Shown: piece after piece, positions 8,288-16,706 of the stretch
Layout of the letters: each line of letters opens with the position of its first letter
Numbering within the stretch: the stretch's first letter is position 1
Assembly: GCF_000421265.1 (NCBI RefSeq)
Contig: NZ_ATWN01000003.1
Span: 1 to 64,000 of the forward strand
Source of the DNA: Thalassospira lucentensis MCCC 1A00383 = DSM 14000
GTDB lineage: Bacteria > Pseudomonadota > Alphaproteobacteria > Rhodospirillales > Thalassospiraceae
DNA: 64,000 bases
Direction: 5' to 3'
Notes under the pieces: generated by a model
The model's input: only the letters and a program-made list of their open reading frames with translations
What the model was told of the DNA's origin: nothing
The model's database searches: none
Position numbers and translations under genes: made by a program

Positions 8288-9469
8288 ATGAGCCAGGTTG
8301 AATTGAATTTCACGCGTGAGGAATATGCCGAGCGTCTGGAGAAAACCAAAAAAGCCATGGTGGAGAAAGGACTTGATCTGTTGATCGTGTCCGATCCGTC
8401 AAACATGGCCTGGCTGACCGGCTATGACGGCTGGTCATTTTATGTCCATCAATGTGTGCTTGTTCCGATTGAGGATGATCCAATCTGGTTTGGACGTTCC
8501 CAGGACGGAAACGGGGCGAAGCGTACGGTCTATATGACCCATGATCGCATCATTCCCTATGCTGATTATTATGTCCAATCGACCACACATCATCCGATGG
8601 ATTATCTGTCCGAGGTGATTGAACATCGCGGATGGGGATCGCGCAGAATTGGCGTTGAAATGGACAATTACTATTTCTCCGCCAAGGCTTTCCTGCAACT
8701 GCAGGCCCATTTGCCCAATGCAACGTTTTCCGACGCCACCGCCCTTGTAAACTGGCAACGCGCCATCAAATCGGAAACCGAAATTTTCTATATGCGTCAG
8801 GCCGCCCGCATTGTTGAAAACATGCATGAACGTATTTTCGAAATCGTCGAACCGGGCATGAAGAAAAACGAACTGGTCGCGGAAATCTTCCGTACCGGCA
8901 TCGCCGGTGTGGACGGAATTGGCGGGGATTACCCCGCAATTGTCCCGCTTCTGCCATCGGGTGCGGATGCCGGTGCACCGCATCTGACATGGGATGAAAA
9001 ACCCATTCCGGGCAATTCGGGGACGTTTTTTGAAATTGCCGGATGTTATCGCCGCTATCACGCGCCACTGTCGCGCACGATTTTCCTTGGCGATCCGGAC
9101 CAAAGGTTCCTTGATGCTGAAAGTGCCCTGATCGAAGGCCTTCAGGCCGGGCTTGAGGCCGCCAAACCGGGCAACGTCTGCGAAGACATCGCACTTGCCT
9201 TCTTTGGCGTTCTGCAAAAATACGGCATCGAAAAAGACAGCCGCTGTGGCTATCCAATCGGGCTGTCCTATCCGCCCGACTGGGGCGAGCGCACCATGAG
9301 TTTGCGTCCCGGTGATAAAACGGTTCTTGAACCAGGCATGACCTTCCACTTCATGCCGGGTCTCTGGTTTGATGACTGGGGGATCGAAATCACCGAAAGC
9401 ATGATGATCACGGAAACCGGCAGCAAAACACTGACCAGTTACCCACGGCAGCTGTTTGTGAAGAACTAG
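8288..9469 (+). CDS. doeA: Ectoine hydrolase DoeA (EutD)
   Basis: A 393-residue peptidase-M24-fold enzyme. DoeA opens the ectoine ring to N-alpha-acetyl-L-2,4-diaminobutyrate, the first committed step of ectoine breakdown in the cytosol. The N-terminal creatinase-like domain contains NMAWLTGYDGWSFYVHQ (about residues 38-54). The C-terminal pita-bread domain ends with PGMTFHFMPGL and IEITESMMIT. The ATG is preceded by CTGGAGGCCTGCG. It sits between eutC and doeB as in characterised clusters. The product acetyl-diaminobutyrate is also an EnuR inducer. Confidence 0.93.
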   Translation: MSQVELNFTREEYAERLEKTKKAMVEKGLDLLIVSDPSNMAWLTGYDGWSFYVHQCVLVPIEDDPIWFGRSQDGNGAKRTVYMTHDRIIPYADYYVQSTTHHPMDYLSEVIEHRGWGSRRIGVEMDNYYFSAKAFLQLQAHLPNATFSDATALVNWQRAIKSETEIFYMRQAARIVENMHERIFEIVEPGMKKNELVAEIFRTGIAGVDGIGGDYPAIVPLLPSGADAGAPHLTWDEKPIPGNSGTFFEIAGCYRRYHAPLSRTIFLGDPDQRFLDAESALIEGLQAGLEAAKPGNVCEDIALAFFGVLQKYGIEKDSRCGYPIGLSYPPDWGERTMSLRPGDKTVLEPGMTFHFMPGLWFDDWGIEITESMMITETGSKTLTSYPRQLFVKN

Positions 9470-9603
9470 CCACCGGCGATCACACCAACACCGCACCGGG
9501 CCGACGTTCCAAACGGCAATATGCCAAGCCGCTCGTCCCCGGTGCAACAGTACCAATGCCGAATTTCGACGGTCGCGACATTCGGCCCTTCAAGGATACG
9601 ACC

Positions 9604-10602
9604 ATGACAAAAGCCTCCCCCATCAGCCCGACGATCCCGCTTGATCGCGATGGCATCCACCACGGCTTTTTAAAGCTGCCCTATTCGCGTGACGATTCCG
9701 CATGGGGGGCTGTGATGATCCCCATCACGGTTATCCGCAATGGGGCTGGCCCCACCGCCCTTCTGACCGGCGGCAATCACGGCGATGAGTACGAGGGCCT
9801 CGTGTCCCTGTTCAAACTGGCAGGCTCCCTTACCCCGGCCGACGTCACCGGGCGCGTGATCATTCTGCCCGCCATGAACTATCCGGCATTTCGCGCAGCC
9901 TCGCGGACATCGCCCATTGATGCGGGCAATATGAACCGGTCCTATCCGGGCAAACCCGATGGCACAGTCACCCAGAAAATCGCCGATTACGTCCTGCGCT
10001 ATCTCGTGCCCGAGGCAGACATCGTTCTCGATATCCATTCGGGTGGCAAGACGCTTGATTTCATCCCGTTTGCCGCGGCCCACGTCCTGCCCGACAAGGA
10101 ACAGGAAGCCCGCTGCGTTGCGGCGATGAAGGCATTTGGCGCGCCCTATTCGATGATGATGCTCGAACTCGATGCAGTTGGCATGTTCGACACCGTCGTC
10201 GAAGAAGCCGGCAAAACCTTTGTCACCACCGAACTTGGCGGCGGCGGCTCCACCACGGCAGAACGCATGGCCATTGCCGATCGCGGTGTGCGCAATATTC
10301 TGATCCATGCCGGAATTGTCGGCGGTGAAATTGAAGCCGCCCCGAATGGCACTGCCATGCTTGATATGCCCGGCGATGATTGCTTTGTCGCGTCTCAAGA
10401 CGTCGGCCTGTTTGAGCCCTGCGTTGATCTGGGCGACATGGTCAAAAAGGGTGATCTGATTGCCCGCATTTATGATGTGGAGCGCACCGGCACAGCCCCG
10501 CGCGAATATCATGCATCGCGTGACGGGATATTATCGTGCCGTCACTTCCCCGGCCTGATCAAGATGGGTGATTGTCTGGCCGTGATTGCAAAGGTGCTGT
10601 GA
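9604..10602 (+). CDS. doeB: N-alpha-acetyl-L-2,4-diaminobutyrate deacetylase DoeB (EutE)
   Basis: A 332-residue zinc deacylase of the succinylglutamate desuccinylase/aspartoacylase family. The zinc ligands are His59 and Glu62 in NHGDEYEG and His145 in DIHSGG. It removes the acetyl group made available by DoeA, giving 2,4-diaminobutyrate. I chose ATG 9604 because the longer frame from 9556 has no ribosome site and an atypical N-terminus. It is followed after two bases by the regulator gene doeX. The later enzymes doeC and doeD are not next door. Confidence 0.92.
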   Translation: MTKASPISPTIPLDRDGIHHGFLKLPYSRDDSAWGAVMIPITVIRNGAGPTALLTGGNHGDEYEGLVSLFKLAGSLTPADVTGRVIILPAMNYPAFRAASRTSPIDAGNMNRSYPGKPDGTVTQKIADYVLRYLVPEADIVLDIHSGGKTLDFIPFAAAHVLPDKEQEARCVAAMKAFGAPYSMMMLELDAVGMFDTVVEEAGKTFVTTELGGGGSTTAERMAIADRGVRNILIHAGIVGGEIEAAPNGTAMLDMPGDDCFVASQDVGLFEPCVDLGDMVKKGDLIARIYDVERTGTAPREYHASRDGILSCRHFPGLIKMGDCLAVIAKVL

Positions 10603-10604
10603 CC

Positions 10605-11096
10605 ATGATCAGGCTTGATGAGCTGGATCTTAAAATACTCAAAACCCTGCAACGCGAAGGGCGCATCACCAAGGTCAAACTGGCCGAGGCGGTCAACCTG
10701 TCGCCAAGTCCATGCTGGGAACGCCTGAAACGCCTCGAAGACCTTGGGGTGATTTCGGGCTATCACGCCCATATCAATCTGGAAAAACTGGTCAAACCAA
10801 CCTTGGTGCTGACCGAAGTCACCCTGCGCCATCATCAGCACGATGATTTCCAGATTTTCGAGAAAGCCGTGCAGGACATCCCCGAAATCGTCGAATGCTA
10901 TGGCTTGGGCGGCGGGGTCGACTACATGCTCAAGGTGCTCTGTCACGATGTTGATGCCTATCAACGCCTGATCGACCGCCTTCTGGTGTCTGATATCGGT
11001 ATTGATCGCTATTTCACCTATATCGTCACCAAAAAGGTCAAAACCACCGCCATCACCCCGATTGAAAATCTGGTTGAGTCCCCGGAACGGAAATAA
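10605..11096 (+). CDS. doeX: Lrp/AsnC-family regulator of the ectoine cluster
   Basis: A 163-residue Lrp/AsnC protein: N-terminal helix-turn-helix (LAEAVNLSPSPCWERLKRLE, residues about 25-44) and a C-terminal RAM ligand-binding domain. In ectoine clusters this regulator (DoeX or AsnC) acts beside EnuR. It starts two bases after the doeB stop, so it is cotranscribed and probably translationally coupled. ATG 10605 is preferred over the upstream frame that overlaps doeB. A strong terminator follows 49 bases later. Confidence 0.88.
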   Translation: MIRLDELDLKILKTLQREGRITKVKLAEAVNLSPSPCWERLKRLEDLGVISGYHAHINLEKLVKPTLVLTEVTLRHHQHDDFQIFEKAVQDIPEIVECYGLGGGVDYMLKVLCHDVDAYQRLIDRLLVSDIGIDRYFTYIVTKKVKTTAITPIENLVESPERK

Positions 11097-11145: not shown

Positions 11146-11201
11146 CGGGCCGGCCTGATCAAGTTCAGGCTGGCCCGCGCTATAATTCTTTTCTTTTTTT
11201 T
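11146..11201 (+). terminator. Terminator of the ectoine operon
   Basis: CGGGCCGGCCTGA (11146-11158) pairs with TCAGGCTGGCCCG (11165-11177), with one G-T pair, around a six-base loop. It is followed by an A/T stretch that ends in a long T-run. It marks the end of the uehBC-eutABC-doeAB-doeX transcription unit. Confidence 0.92.
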
Positions 11202-11250
11202 GAAACTGTGGCGAAATCAGCTTTCGGGTTTTATCGCGCAGGGGGCGGGG

Positions 11251-12723
11251 ATGATTGTTGGCAATTGGGGCGCAAAAGCCCTGCTGATTGGCGTGTGTAT
11301 GGTCGGACTGATCGGATGTCAGACAACAACCGGCGACACATCCACACCCCCTGTTCAAGGTACCGCACCCGCCCTTTCATCCGCCCCATCATCCGCCCCG
11401 CAACAAACCGTTGCCAATCTCTCCGAAACCGCCCTGATCAGTTTCGAATTGAACAATTCCGGCATTGGCGGATATTACGGATGGCAACTTCAAGTCACCC
11501 ATGCTGCCAACAATGCCGGGTTCATCCCGTTTATATCGAACCAATTATCATCGGGGCAAATCCAGCGGTTTGAAGTCTGGCCTGACCGGTATGCAATCAA
11601 TGTCTATCGACTGGGTAATCTGCAATATAGCGGCTGGATCGATGTCCATCCTGCACAGATCACTGTCATTTACGCCGACTTCGGGCTGTTGTTTGACGAT
11701 GTGAAAATCAACAATATTGCCGACCCTGCACTCTATCTGCAGGCAAAAAACATCCCCGCATTGCTGACCCCGATATCATCGACTTACAGTCCCCAGACCA
11801 TTCAGGATACAGGTGGCTACCGCTTTGAATATCGCGGCCCACAACAGTATGGCAAGCATGTCGGCACCGGGACTGCCACGATATCAGAAGCCGGAAAGGA
11901 ATTTGCCACCATCGGCAATGCTGCCCTTGAAGATACCGGCATATCGGGCCGCATACAGTTTGCCGACAACCGCACGACGGATGGCACCATCGTTCGTCTA
12001 AACGGCATCTATCAACTCGCACCGGAAACACGCACCATTTGGCCCGACGGTCAGGAATTTACCGGGCGTTATCAAGTTTTCACCCCGGCTGACGGTTTGC
12101 TGCGTATGGTTGACGGAACGTCATGGAAAGGTGCTTTGCGCAACGAGCGTCCTTTTGGAGCCGGACGGGTTATGTTCGCAGCGGATGGCTGGATCGATCT
12201 TCCATCGGGCGAAATGTTCCCGAACCAAACCGGGACATTTTCGTGCGGCGGCAAAACCGTGCCCATCGGCGAATGTTATTACCATGCCGGGACAAGATTG
12301 GCTTCGGCGGCAGAACTTGATCTCTTGATCGAAAGGGATCTTCAAACTGCCGCCAAAGACGTCAAACAGCCCCAGCAACAAACAATCGATGCCCCTCAGG
12401 CGACCGAAACCGGCTGCAGACAGGCAAGTGGAACATTTCACGACACGACCGGTAATTCGACATTGACGCTAGACACGCCCGGCCAGGGACGCGGTAATTT
12501 TATCAGCTACACCTTTGGCGGTGCCGCAAAATACCGGTTTGAAATCGATTTCACTTATACCACCACCCCCGACAGCATTTCCGTGACCTATGATGGCATT
12601 GGAACCTATAGCAATGCTGCAACCGGCGAGGTTCTTCAACGTATGACGATACCGTCCGGCACCGTACCTTGCCAGTTTGACCGTGACGTTCTGGTCTTTG
12701 ACGGTGTGGAATACCGAAAATAA
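11251..12723 (+). CDS. Large uncharacterised lipoprotein with MORN-like segment
   Basis: A 490-residue protein with a lipoprotein signal: hydrophobic MCMVGLIG-like stretch followed by the lipobox cysteine in GLIGCQTTT. It is therefore probably anchored to the inner or outer membrane and faces the periplasm. A Thr/Ser/Pro/Ala-rich linker follows. The middle third has repeated aromatic/glycine units such as DGQEFTGRY, DGTSWKGALRNERPFGAG and ADGWIDLPSGEMF, which resemble MORN repeats. The C-terminus has two cysteines (TGCRQ, VPCQFD). ATG 11251 is chosen because it lies after the terminator and follows a G-rich site. I do not recognise a function. Confidence 0.7.
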   Translation: MIVGNWGAKALLIGVCMVGLIGCQTTTGDTSTPPVQGTAPALSSAPSSAPQQTVANLSETALISFELNNSGIGGYYGWQLQVTHAANNAGFIPFISNQLSSGQIQRFEVWPDRYAINVYRLGNLQYSGWIDVHPAQITVIYADFGLLFDDVKINNIADPALYLQAKNIPALLTPISSTYSPQTIQDTGGYRFEYRGPQQYGKHVGTGTATISEAGKEFATIGNAALEDTGISGRIQFADNRTTDGTIVRLNGIYQLAPETRTIWPDGQEFTGRYQVFTPADGLLRMVDGTSWKGALRNERPFGAGRVMFAADGWIDLPSGEMFPNQTGTFSCGGKTVPIGECYYHAGTRLASAAELDLLIERDLQTAAKDVKQPQQQTIDAPQATETGCRQASGTFHDTTGNSTLTLDTPGQGRGNFISYTFGGAAKYRFEIDFTYTTTPDSISVTYDGIGTYSNAATGEVLQRMTIPSGTVPCQFDRDVLVFDGVEYRK

Positions 12724-13019: not shown

Positions 13020-13049
13020 TAACCTCCGTTTCAAATGATATGGAGGTTA
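13020..13049 (+). promoter_or_regulatory. Inverted repeat covering the ribosome site of the sulfotransferase operon
   Basis: TAACCTCC (13020-13027) is perfectly complementary to GGAGGTTA (13042-13049) with a 14-base loop. The right arm contains the complete Shine-Dalgarno of the GTG start at 13053. Formed in the message, the stem would block ribosome entry, so translation of the operon may be conditional. Confidence 0.6.
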
Positions 13050-13052
13050 TGC

Positions 13053-14444
13053 GTGTCTGGTTCCGATCAAGAAGATCAAACCGCCGCCAATAATGGCGGC
13101 GATCGCGTTTTTATTTCTGCCTTTTTTGTTGGTATTGCCGCGATCAGCTTTGGTCTGGGCGCGTTTGTCGTGCTGGCAGAAGTGCCGCCGTATCAATCGA
13201 TGAAAAATGCGTGGCGTGCCGGGACGGCCCTTTGGGAACAGCGCACCAAATACACCGATGTCGAACGGCTTGATTTCTGGGCCGAAGCCAGAAGCGATCA
13301 GACCGGCATTACCATCCACGATGCCAATCGCGCGCAAAATGGCCTGACACTTTATTCATCGGGCGATGGTCCGCATGCGGTGCTGATCGATATGGATGGC
13401 AATATTGTCCATGAATGGCGCATGCCCTTTAGCATGATCCACGATGAGACATCCCCGATCCCCAATCCGCAAAAAGACGACTTCATGCATTGGCACACCG
13501 CCAAGATGGCCCCCGATGGCGATCTGATTGTCCAATACACGGCGGCGGGTGACACGCCATATGGTTATGGCATGGCCAAGATGGACCGTGATTCTAATCT
13601 GGTCTGGAAATACCTTGGCACCGCCCACCATGATTTTTCCATTGCCGATGATGGCCGGGTCTATGCCCTGACACAGGAATTCCGGTTCAACACCTACGCC
13701 AACCGCAAACAACTGACCCCGCCGCGTCTGGATGATTTCGCGGTGATCCTCTCGCCCGAGGGCAAGGAGATCAAAAAGGTCTCGATCCTTGATGCGCTGA
13801 TCAATTCAAGCTACGCCAACATGGTTGATTTCGCGCCGTATTTCGCCAATGAAGACATTCTTCACACCAATACAATCCAGTTGATTGACGCCGACACCGC
13901 AAAGAACTTTGCCTATGGCAAGGAAGGCGACGTTGTTGTGTCCTTCCGCGATCTTGGCATCATCGCCGTGCTTGATATGGATGCGGAAAAAATTGTCTGG
14001 GCCACCCGTGGTTCATGGCTGGGGCAGCATGACCCCGATGTTTTGCCCAACGGCGATATCTTGCTGTTTGACAATCAGGGGCAGCTTGCCGACCCGGATG
14101 CCGGACAATCACGCGTTTTGCAAATTGATCCAGTAACCAACGCCATCACGTGGCAGTACAAGGGCACGGCAACTCATAAGTTTGACAGCAACATCCGTGC
14201 TGATCAGCAACGCCTGCCCAATGGCAATACACTGATTACGGAATCAAGCGGCGGCCGACTGTTTGAAGTCACCCCGACCAGTGACATCGTGTGGGAATTC
14301 CACAATCCGATCCGTCGCGACGATCCTGATAATCCCGACAAAAAACTGATCCCCGTTGTGTCGCAGGCCGAACGCATCACCGATGCGCGTGCGGCCCTGT
14401 ATCGCGACACTGTCCCTGCCTCCAACACCGGAGACGCACAATGA
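13053..14444 (+). CDS. Membrane-anchored arylsulfotransferase-like beta-propeller protein
   Basis: A 463-residue protein with one N-terminal membrane anchor (about residues 19-41) and a periplasmic beta-propeller of the arylsulfotransferase (ASST) family. Histidine motifs typical of the family are visible: HHDFSIADDGRVYAL (His192-193), GQHDPDVLPNGDILLFDN (His326) and DQQRLPNGNTLI. ASST enzymes move sulfate between phenolic esters without PAPS, using a catalytic histidine. Whether this protein does so is untested. The GTG at 13053 follows GGAGG; an ATG at 13035 precedes that site and is less likely. It overlaps the next gene by four bases (ATGA) and opens a four-gene operon. Confidence 0.75.
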   Translation: MSGSDQEDQTAANNGGDRVFISAFFVGIAAISFGLGAFVVLAEVPPYQSMKNAWRAGTALWEQRTKYTDVERLDFWAEARSDQTGITIHDANRAQNGLTLYSSGDGPHAVLIDMDGNIVHEWRMPFSMIHDETSPIPNPQKDDFMHWHTAKMAPDGDLIVQYTAAGDTPYGYGMAKMDRDSNLVWKYLGTAHHDFSIADDGRVYALTQEFRFNTYANRKQLTPPRLDDFAVILSPEGKEIKKVSILDALINSSYANMVDFAPYFANEDILHTNTIQLIDADTAKNFAYGKEGDVVVSFRDLGIIAVLDMDAEKIVWATRGSWLGQHDPDVLPNGDILLFDNQGQLADPDAGQSRVLQIDPVTNAITWQYKGTATHKFDSNIRADQQRLPNGNTLITESSGGRLFEVTPTSDIVWEFHNPIRRDDPDNPDKKLIPVVSQAERITDARAALYRDTVPASNTGDAQ

Positions 14445-14752
14445 AACAGACCCAAAACGCAATGACGCATGCCCAACGTATGTCTGCGCCCAGCTCAAGA
14501 ATGCTCACCATCGGCACCACGGCGGCCCTTTCCTGTGCCATGCTGCTAACCGCCTTTCCTGCCCATGCCTATGTCGGGCCGGGTGCGGGGTTAAGCCTTC
14601 TGTCCGCCCTTTGGGCTGTCTTGGCCGCGATCCTTGTTGCGGTTGGCTTCGTTCTGATGTGGCCCATTCGCAAAATGATGCGCAAACGCAAAGCCAATCG
14701 CACGACGGCGCAAAGCAGCACGACCGAAAGCACAAAACATTCAAGTTCGTGA
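14441..14752 (+). CDS. Small membrane protein with YVGPGAGL motif
   Basis: A 103-residue protein. It has a signal peptide-like N-terminus ending near AFPAHA, then AYVGPGAGLSLL, one membrane helix (ALWAVLAAILVAVGFVLMW) and a very basic tail rich in lysine and arginine. Small proteins with this YVGPGAG block are, to my recollection, often found near alkaline phosphatase-superfamily or sulfotransferase genes, but I know of no assigned function. Its start overlaps the end of the ASST-like gene (ATGA), which points to coupled translation and joint action. Confidence 0.75.
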   Translation: MKQTQNAMTHAQRMSAPSSRMLTIGTTAALSCAMLLTAFPAHAYVGPGAGLSLLSALWAVLAAILVAVGFVLMWPIRKMMRKRKANRTTAQSSTTESTKHSSS

Positions 14753-14790
14753 ACGCACCGCATCACTGACGTACAACAGGACGGCACATA

Positions 14791-15531
14791 ATGGGACTTT
14801 TTGACTGGCCCGCCCCGGCATTCACAACTCTGGACGACTTGATGGGCGACGCCATTGGCCCGTTTGGGCGCGTGCTGATCTGGGGGCTGCTCTGTGCAGT
14901 CATTTCCATGGTCCTGTATCGGATGTTATCACCGCAAACCCGGATCAAACAGATCAAGGCCGATGTCAAAACCGCCCAGAAAGCCATGACCGACGACGAT
15001 GGCGAAGACTTCGCCCACGGCATGCGTCTGGCCAGGGCACAGCTTGGGCATTCCTTCAAACTGGTGGGCTTTGTGATCGGTCCGGCGGTTCTGGCGTCCA
15101 TGCCCGCCCTTGCCATGATTGTCTGGCTGGACGGGCAATATGGGTATCGCTGTCCGGCCCCCGATCAGACCGTGACAATTTCGGTCGAGCCGCAAGGCAC
15201 CCCGATTGAGCAGGTCGGCATTAACTCCGACGCCCAAGACAGCAGCTGTCCAACCGTCCAGATCCCCGGAACCCTTGACGGACAAACCCATGTCATTGCC
15301 CCGGCCGCAGCCATTCCGGTGATGCACCAAAAGGTCTGGTGGAACCATTTGATTGGCAATCCGGCGGGATATCTGCCCGACGACACACCCGTGACGCAGC
15401 TTCGCTTTGACCTGCCCGCACAGGAAATCATCGCCTTTGGTCCGGGCTGGGCACGTGGTTGGGAACTGACATTCTTTGTCGCCCTGTTGTTGGCGTCACT
15501 GGGGATCAAGAAAGGATTTCGGATCGAATGA
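14791..15531 (+). CDS. EMC3/DUF106-like membrane protein (YidC/Oxa1 superfamily?)
   Basis: A 246-residue membrane protein. Helix 1 spans about residues 27-45. It is followed by a charged amphipathic segment with RIKQIKADVKTAQKAM and further Asp/Lys/Arg, then a second hydrophobic hairpin (HSFKLVGFVIGPAVLASM onward), a soluble periplasmic segment with two cysteines, and a last helix near the C-terminus. The order helix, coiled basic segment, helix pair resembles EMC3/TMCO1/DUF106 proteins, relatives of the YidC/Oxa1 insertases. This is fold-level resemblance by eye only. It overlaps the sulfotransferase gene (ATGA). Confidence 0.6.
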   Translation: MGLFDWPAPAFTTLDDLMGDAIGPFGRVLIWGLLCAVISMVLYRMLSPQTRIKQIKADVKTAQKAMTDDDGEDFAHGMRLARAQLGHSFKLVGFVIGPAVLASMPALAMIVWLDGQYGYRCPAPDQTVTISVEPQGTPIEQVGINSDAQDSSCPTVQIPGTLDGQTHVIAPAAAIPVMHQKVWWNHLIGNPAGYLPDDTPVTQLRFDLPAQEIIAFGPGWARGWELTFFVALLLASLGIKKGFRIE

Positions 15532-16706
15532 CCAATATAATCGACACCACTTCCGACAAGATCACCACGCAAAAATCGCCAAAACCCGAAGCATTCCACG
15601 TTTCGGGTTGGGATCACTGGCTCAGCGGCCTGATCGCCCGTCACCCGGCCAAATGGATCCGGCTTGGCAATTTCGAAACGAAAATGGCCGCTGATGCCAT
15701 CGCAGATATCCAGATTGAAAAACCGATTTTCGTGGCCGGTCTGGCACGTTCAGGCAGTACAATTCTGCTTGAAACCCTTGCCCAGCACCCCGATGCCGCC
15801 ACCCATCAGTATCGCGATTACCCGCCTGTTTTTACCCCGTGGTTCTGGAACCGCTTTGTCGATCTCGCACCGGGCAAAAAGAACGTGGCTGTTGAACGCA
15901 CCCATGCCGATGGCATCAACATCACCCCCGAAAGCCCCGAAGCGTTCGAGGAAATGATCTGGATGGCGTTTTTCCGTCATCTCCATGACATTGGGGACAA
16001 CAACACGCTTGATGAACACATCAGCAACCCCGCGTTTGAGGCATTCTACCGTGACCATATCCGAAAACTGATCCATGTTCGGGGCGGCACGCGCTATGTA
16101 TCCAAGGCAAACTATCTCGTCACCCGGATGGAATATCTGTTGTCGCTGTTTCCCGATGCGCGCTTTGTTTTACCGGTCCGCGATCCGGTTTGGCACATCG
16201 CATCCCTGATCAAGCAACACAATCTTTTCTGTGCCGGGGAACAGAACAATCCCCGTGCGGTTGCCCATATGCAGCGTGTCGGACATTTCGAATTTGGGCT
16301 GGATCGCCGCCCGATCAACACCGGGGATTTGCACGCAACCCTCGACATCATGAATCTGTGGAAAAACGGCAAGGAAATCGAAGGATGGGCGCACTATTGG
16401 TCCAACCTGCATCATTATCTGGCAGACCGGTTAACCGTGAACAAAGCACTTGAAAAGGCAACGCTTGTGATGCGCTACGAGGATCTGGTGGCTGATCCTG
16501 CGGGTAAGTTGCGTGCGCTGTTTGATCACACCGGGCTTGCCGATGCCCAGCCAATCATTGACCGCGTGGCCCCGACGATCCATGCCCCAAGTTACTATCG
16601 CCCGAATTTCGGCGACGATGAAATCGACCAAATCCGCGACATTACAATGATCGCCGCCAAACGGTTTGGCTATGACGTCAGGCCCGCCGAAACACGGCAG
16701 GCCTGA
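15528..16706 (+). CDS. PAPS-dependent sulfotransferase-family protein
   Basis: A 392-residue cytosolic-type sulfotransferase. The 5'-phosphosulfate loop is FVAGLARSGSTILLETLAQH (about residues 68-87). The 3'-phosphate-binding part is FVLPVRDPVWHIASL near residue 215. These proteins transfer sulfate from PAPS to a hydroxyl group; the acceptor here is unknown. ATG 15528 overlaps the stop of the EMC3-like gene and AAAGGA lies upstream, so the longer frame from 15459 is rejected. The stop codon lies inside the terminator hairpin. Context suggests it works with the periplasmic ASST-like protein on a membrane-associated substrate. Confidence 0.8.
   Translation: MTNIIDTTSDKITTQKSPKPEAFHVSGWDHWLSGLIARHPAKWIRLGNFETKMAADAIADIQIEKPIFVAGLARSGSTILLETLAQHPDAATHQYRDYPPVFTPWFWNRFVDLAPGKKNVAVERTHADGINITPESPEAFEEMIWMAFFRHLHDIGDNNTLDEHISNPAFEAFYRDHIRKLIHVRGGTRYVSKANYLVTRMEYLLSLFPDARFVLPVRDPVWHIASLIKQHNLFCAGEQNNPRAVAHMQRVGHFEFGLDRRPINTGDLHATLDIMNLWKNGKEIEGWAHYWSNLHHYLADRLTVNKALEKATLVMRYEDLVADPAGKLRALFDHTGLADAQPIIDRVAPTIHAPSYYRPNFGDDEIDQIRDITMIAAKRFGYDVRPAETRQA

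Follow-up and report, generated by a model that had tools for sequence, protein, structure and literature searches.

The source of activated sulfate for a periplasmic arylsulfotransferase (ASST), an enzyme unable to use 3′-phosphoadenosine 5′-phosphosulfate (PAPS), is an open question to which a gene cassette in Thalassospira lucentensis suggests an answer. The cassette lies in a stretch of 64,000 nucleotides from contig NZ_ATWN01000003.1 (the window) and consists of four genes encoding an ASST-like propeller, a mini-protein (YVG), a 246-residue membrane protein (P246), and a PAPS-type cytosolic sulfotransferase (ST). These genes are inherited as a unit, and P246 is placed in the Oxa1 superfamily by a sequence profile. 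It is proposed here, with a probability of roughly 40 %, that the four genes are a self-contained two-step sulfate relay across the inner membrane. A literature search found no paper describing the cassette.

Conservation and organization of the cassette

P246, ASST, ST, and YVG are each present in the same 19 out of 29 Thalassospira genomes and all four are absent from the same 10. When the P246 alignment was used to scan approximately 85,000 species genomes, 64 loci were identified in the Alphaproteobacteria, Gammaproteobacteria, and Desulfobacterota, including 12 from other Thalassospira, in which identity to the window protein falls to about 30 %. By profile searches of the open reading frames (ORFs), 48 of these 64 loci have the four families together on a single strand, and the order ASST-YVG-P246-ST is present in 46 of these 48 complete loci. 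At another complete locus (L065) the ASST gene has moved to the end, and in a gammaproteobacterial metagenome-assembled genome (MAG; L058, 920-5082) three tandem ASST paralogues stand in front of YVG-P246-ST, which brings the loci with the common order to 47. A complete cassette is also carried on a plasmid of the deep-sea species Paroceanicella profunda (L123:4238-7823), with amino-acid ABC transporters on its flanks, where the RefSeq labels read arylsulfotransferase, hypothetical protein, hypothetical protein, and sulfotransferase. The carriers are bacteria of sea and soil, and the association of the four genes is far beyond chance. A role in anti-phage defence was considered and dropped, based on the absence of a PADLOC defence model matching any of the four proteins.

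In the window, the genes run head to tail on the forward strand. The ASST gene (13053..14444; 463 aa) begins with a GTG that aligns with the ATG starts of its relatives and is preceded by GGAGG (13042..13046, forward strand), read from the sequence as its probable ribosome-binding site. It overlaps the YVG gene (14441..14752; 103 aa) by ATGA at 14441-14444; a gap of 38 nt then separates YVG from the P246 gene (14791..15531), which in turn overlaps the ST gene (15528..16706; 392 aa) by ATGA at 15528-15531. The initial annotation of this locus had described a four-gene unit with ATGA at two of its joints, and both the reading frames and, through the gene-neighbourhood survey, their being kept together are confirmed. 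Promoter and terminator scans returned matches at chance level only.

The closest relatives of the window are T. lohafexi and other Thalassospira. Neighbouring genes include doeA, doeB, an Lrp/AsnC regulator, a probable lipoprotein, an amidase, and a TRAP transporter. Directly upstream (8288-11096) are the ectoine catabolism genes for DoeA (TIGR02993) and DoeB (TIGR02994) with the Lrp/AsnC-type regulator, and these ectoine genes adjoin the cassette in many Thalassospira. Between them and the cassette, in some Thalassospira only, is the gene for the probable lipoprotein (11200-12723; 507 aa), which has no Pfam or NCBIfam match.

The four proteins and their variants

Searches of Pfam, NCBIfam, and the PDB with the single P246 sequence returned no match. 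When a profile of 60 homologues was compared with all PDB sequences, one chain was significant, MJ0480 of Methanocaldococcus jannaschii (5c8j_I; E 6.2e-9), with the next match at E 0.76. MJ0480 is a DUF106 protein with a YidC-like fold (PMC7618853). Profile positions 3-118 align with MJ0480 residues 5-123, with a single 3-residue insertion, covering the first transmembrane (TM) helix, the cytoplasmic hairpin, and TM2. MJ0480 scores 37.8 bits against the P246 profile, compared with 4.2 bits for the reversed MJ0480 sequence and a maximum of 18.9 bits for about 3000 hydropathy-preserving shuffles. Among 7,670 ORFs from outside this family, only the tail of a fusion protein described below (L094) scored above 10 bits. 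The EMC3_TMCO1 model (PF01956) picks up just one of the 60 members, at E 0.07, which is below its curated cut-off, and across 299 Pseudomonadota genomes it shows sub-threshold scatter and no match over the cut-off; current models therefore do not see this family. On the evidence of its sequence profile, P246 is a member of the EMC3/DUF106/YidC (Oxa1) superfamily.

The AlphaFold2 (AF2) model of P246 has a mean predicted local distance difference test (pLDDT) score of 91.6 and helices at residues 24-46, 49-68, 74-102, 104-117, and 224-243. These are read as TM1 (24-46), a hairpin (49-68/74-102), TM2 (to ~117), and TM3 (224-243), with a periplasmic beta domain at 118-222; the orientation in the membrane is that predicted from charge. 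Three TMs are seen by hydropathy in 40 of the 60 members. In the Oxa1 superfamily, three TM helices and a cytoplasmic hairpin are common to the members and the stretch between the last two TMs is hypervariable (PMC8675477). The layout of P246 matches this plan, with its beta domain in the hypervariable stretch. The domain carries a WWN...NPAGYLP motif and is the site of the strongest conservation (W183, W184, N185, N190, G193, and Y194). YidC proper has a positively charged residue, an arginine, in its hydrophilic groove. In TM1 of P246, R27 is R or K in 54 of the 60 sequences and is at most a putative equivalent, as the position of MJ0480 that aligns with it is not basic.

The ASST-like protein matches PF14269 (E 2.4e-27, 96.5 bits; cut-off 27) and PF05935 (E 5e-10). 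It has an N-terminal TM helix at about residues 14-42, and in its AF2 model (pLDDT 90) two helices precede the propeller strands. Across 44 sequences H192, H193, H271-x-N273, R299, and Q325-H326 are invariant and D327 is present in at least 90 %. Its nearest PDB relative is Cpz4 (9kf4/9kf6; sequence E 3e-6, fold E 8e-16), with which R299 and QHD (325-327) align. H271-x-N273, R299, and Q325-H326 also resemble the set of His356, Asn358, Arg374, and His436 in Escherichia coli AssT (PMC13426309), a correspondence by motif, not by direct alignment. Judged by these residues, the protein is an arylsulfotransferase with all of its catalytic residues kept.

The last gene encodes, by its family match and motifs, a PAPS-type sulfotransferase (PF13469, E 7.6e-22, 79.1 bits, cut-off 27; PF00685, E 4.5e-8). 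The 5′-phosphosulfate loop RSGST (74-78) and the 3′-phosphate site R218...S226 are both present, with R74, G76, T78, R218, and S226 invariant in 36 sequences; its PDB matches are weak and are to tyrosylprotein sulfotransferases. An adenosine 5′-phosphosulfate (APS) kinase is encoded in the genome, therefore PAPS can be made. The initial annotation had recognized an anchored ASST-like enzyme and a PAPS-type sulfotransferase as the last gene, and these assignments are supported by the family matches, the invariant residues and motifs, and, for the former, the TM helix. Its suggestion that the 246-residue protein is kin to EMC3 and YidC holds as far as the profile match, the shuffle controls, and the three-TM layout are concerned, but gained no significant match from PF01956 or from the structure comparison considered below.

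YVG has a signal peptide with an A-x-A site, one TM helix, and a basic cytoplasmic tail. Its predicted mature N-terminus is Y-V-G-P-G-A-G, with Tyr at +1 in all 61 distinct sequences and AxA at -3/-1 in 57 of them. No Pfam or NCBIfam family is above cut-off for YVG, and a literature search found no paper on the YVGPGAG motif.

The composition of the cassette varies between loci. Lysobacterales, Marinicella, an Oceanospirillales MAG, and other Gammaproteobacteria have no ASST there; near ST, YVG, and P246 they carry instead a PF01663 phosphodiesterase, often accompanied by a PF00884 sulfatase. Because ASST is replaced by a phosphodiesterase/sulfatase-type enzyme in this one gammaproteobacterial branch, ST, YVG, and P246 are the shared core and ASST is not part of it. 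At L091:3608-6055, a PF01663 phosphodiesterase begins with the YVG segment, and at L094:686-3271 the C-terminus of such a phosphodiesterase is formed by a P246-like beta domain with TM3 (WWNTFLSNKGGY), a tail that scores 29 bits against the P246 profile. As they are fused to it in these loci, both membrane proteins can physically join a periplasmic enzyme. A further phosphodiesterase-P246 fusion, taken from a stop-to-stop ORF at L078, was dropped since its upstream part reads as an out-of-frame stretch.

A search with the YVG profile reached more distant loci that keep ASST-YVG-[3-TM protein]-ST. The third protein has about 235 residues at L110 and only 125-133 residues at L112-L114. A 235-aa third protein is also present at L108, where ASST comes after ST, and a short one at L109, together with YVG and ST and no recognised ASST. 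These third proteins are positional and topological analogues of P246. For the 235-aa forms (L108 and L110) homology to P246 is only suggestive from the sequence (E 0.0055; no match to MJ0480), and for the short forms (L109 and L112-L114) it is not shown (E 0.43; no PDB match). The short proteins of L109, L112, L113, and L114 have three TMs and probably a cytoplasmic hairpin, and they lack a periplasmic domain; they may be a minimal Oxa1-like form, their homology being putative. At L111:8311-9899, ASST and YVG are followed by a stretch that weakly matches the short third protein.

A candidate sulfate relay and its alternatives

In the proposed relay, the cytosolic ST, as its family suggests, would take sulfate from PAPS and place it on a hydroxyl group, probably a phenolic one, of a carrier associated with the membrane. 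Because the donors of known ASSTs are aryl sulfates, the putative carrier is guessed to be, for example, a quinol or a phenolic lipid. P246 and the single-TM YVG would then carry or flip the sulfated carrier to the outer face and hand it over to the propeller. The anchored ASST, with its catalytic residues in place, would take the sulfuryl group onto H326 and pass it to a putative periplasmic or envelope acceptor. ASSTs are known to sulfate tyrosine-containing peptides (PMC13426309), which makes the YVG tyrosine another candidate for the carrier; after signal-peptide cleavage, this invariant N-terminal residue is predicted to be on the ASST side of the membrane. YidC, Oxa1, and Get1, all of the Oxa1 superfamily, scramble lipids when reconstituted in vitro (PMC10491306), which makes the passage of a lipid-like carrier plausible. 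The more specific proposal, that an Oxa1/YidC/EMC3 member has been adapted to the transport of a small sulfated phenol or lipid, not a polypeptide, between ST and ASST, and that the N-terminal Tyr of YVG may carry or receive sulfate, is put forward tentatively and is rather unlikely to hold in full. Sulfation across the inner membrane, for which the initial annotation named a lipid or glycan as a possible target, would fit the anatomy of the cassette; such a target and the passage of anything across the membrane are both putative. Support for the relay is drawn from the all-or-none inheritance, the 48 complete loci, the lack of a fifth gene common to the remote ones, the superfamily profile of P246 and its three-TM layout with a hairpin, the ASST motifs, the kinship with Cpz4, the APS kinase, and the fusions in the gammaproteobacterial relatives.

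Several points weigh against the relay. Membership of the Oxa1 superfamily does not prove transport, and the part played by P246 could be that of a scaffold or of an insertase. The PF01663 and PF00884 enzymes that replace ASST in the gammaproteobacterial subtype are not predicted by a pure sulfuryl-transfer relay. At L111, ASST and YVG are present with no sulfotransferase within about 10 kb. Lastly, Foldseek with the P246 model found no match in the PDB at E <= 0.001, and no Oxa1-superfamily member is among the best 50 of 361 matches; alone, this result would speak against the EMC3 idea, a conclusion that the profile search reversed.

If P246 and YVG are a docking platform and not a transporter, the hairpin would hold ST, the beta domain would hold ASST or the phosphodiesterase, and the carrier would cross alone or by means of another protein. 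Such a platform would be in line with the joining of YVG (L091), or of TM3 and the beta domain of P246 (L094), to a periplasmic enzyme, and with the concentration of conserved residues in the periplasmic domain of P246. A scaffold would, however, need no Oxa1 core, yet what P246 has in common with MJ0480 is the N-terminal helix, TM1, hairpin, and TM2. A platform is considered possible but unlikely. Superfamily membership would also be expected if P246 were the cassette's own YidC/EMC3, an insertase devoted to bringing YVG and the ASST anchor into the membrane, after which ST and ASST would sulfate without its further help. The neighbours of P246, an N-out single-TM protein and an anchored enzyme, are typical insertase clients, and archaeal and endoplasmic reticulum (ER) members of the superfamily pair with a small membrane partner (PMC8675477). 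The signal peptide of YVG is, though, of the ordinary kind and its A-x-A site canonical, so that the general Sec route should suffice, and an insertase would leave unexplained why a cytosolic ST is linked and why the beta domain is found fused to a periplasmic enzyme. Such a function is improbable.

It is more improbable still that the cassette detoxifies or recycles sulfate esters, with ASST stripping incoming aryl sulfates, ST acting on unrelated cytosolic phenols, and the genes sharing only their regulation. Many phenols serve as acceptors for known ASSTs, whose roles in the cell are mostly unclear (PMC13426309), and sulfatase-family enzymes are present in the gammaproteobacterial subtype, both of which are compatible with this explanation. 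On the other hand, all-or-none inheritance with two non-enzymatic membrane proteins, in an order conserved across classes, favours physical cooperation over loose co-regulation. P246 represents a family of bacterial proteins whose closest kin are of the archaeal three-TM type, and it is tied to sulfate chemistry and not to general protein insertion. The four-gene system also offers a simple setting for testing the idea that insertase folds double as lipid scramblases.

Comparison with known systems

In a published description, the Oxa1 superfamily comprises YidC, in the plasma membrane of prokaryotes, and three paralogues in the ER (PMC8675477). P246 resembles MJ0480 and other archaeal DUF106 proteins, EMC3, TMCO1, GET1, and YidC in its three-TM layout, and aligns with MJ0480 over TM1, hairpin, and TM2. 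It differs from archaeal DUF106/MJ0480 in being bacterial, in falling below the PF01956 cut-off, in having a beta domain of about 105 residues between TM2 and TM3, and in being encoded with sulfotransferases.

The cassette ASST shares with E. coli AssT, encoded in the AssT-DsbL-DsbI operon, a periplasm-facing beta-propeller with a His/Arg catalytic set. The E. coli enzyme has an N-terminal beta-sandwich and the DsbL/DsbI pair (PMC13426309); there is no Dsb gene in the cassette and no N-terminal beta-sandwich in the ASST model. The cassette enzyme is further set apart by its TM anchor, by PF14269 as its best match, and by its linkage to a PAPS enzyme.

The closest known relay is in caprazamycin biosynthesis in Streptomyces, for which the portions of the reports consulted describe PAPS-dependent Cpz8 making an aryl sulfate on a triketide pyrone carrier, which PAPS-independent ASST Cpz4 then uses as donor (PMC6731281, PMC4257720). 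Like Cpz8 and Cpz4, the cassette pairs a PAPS enzyme with an ASST, the two types being linked; their action in sequence through an aryl-sulfate carrier is putative. Unlike the Cpz system, it has no linked carrier-making gene: no counterpart of the type III polyketide synthase of caprazamycin is among the window neighbours, and neighbour-gene clustering shows no fifth gene common to remote loci. Its ASST is also membrane anchored, and neither an Oxa1-like protein nor a YVG protein is described for the Cpz system in those portions (PMC6731281, PMC4257720). The cassette is best seen as a proposed variant of the known two-step PAPS-to-ASST relay, in which the membrane part would be a new bacterial branch of the Oxa1 superfamily.

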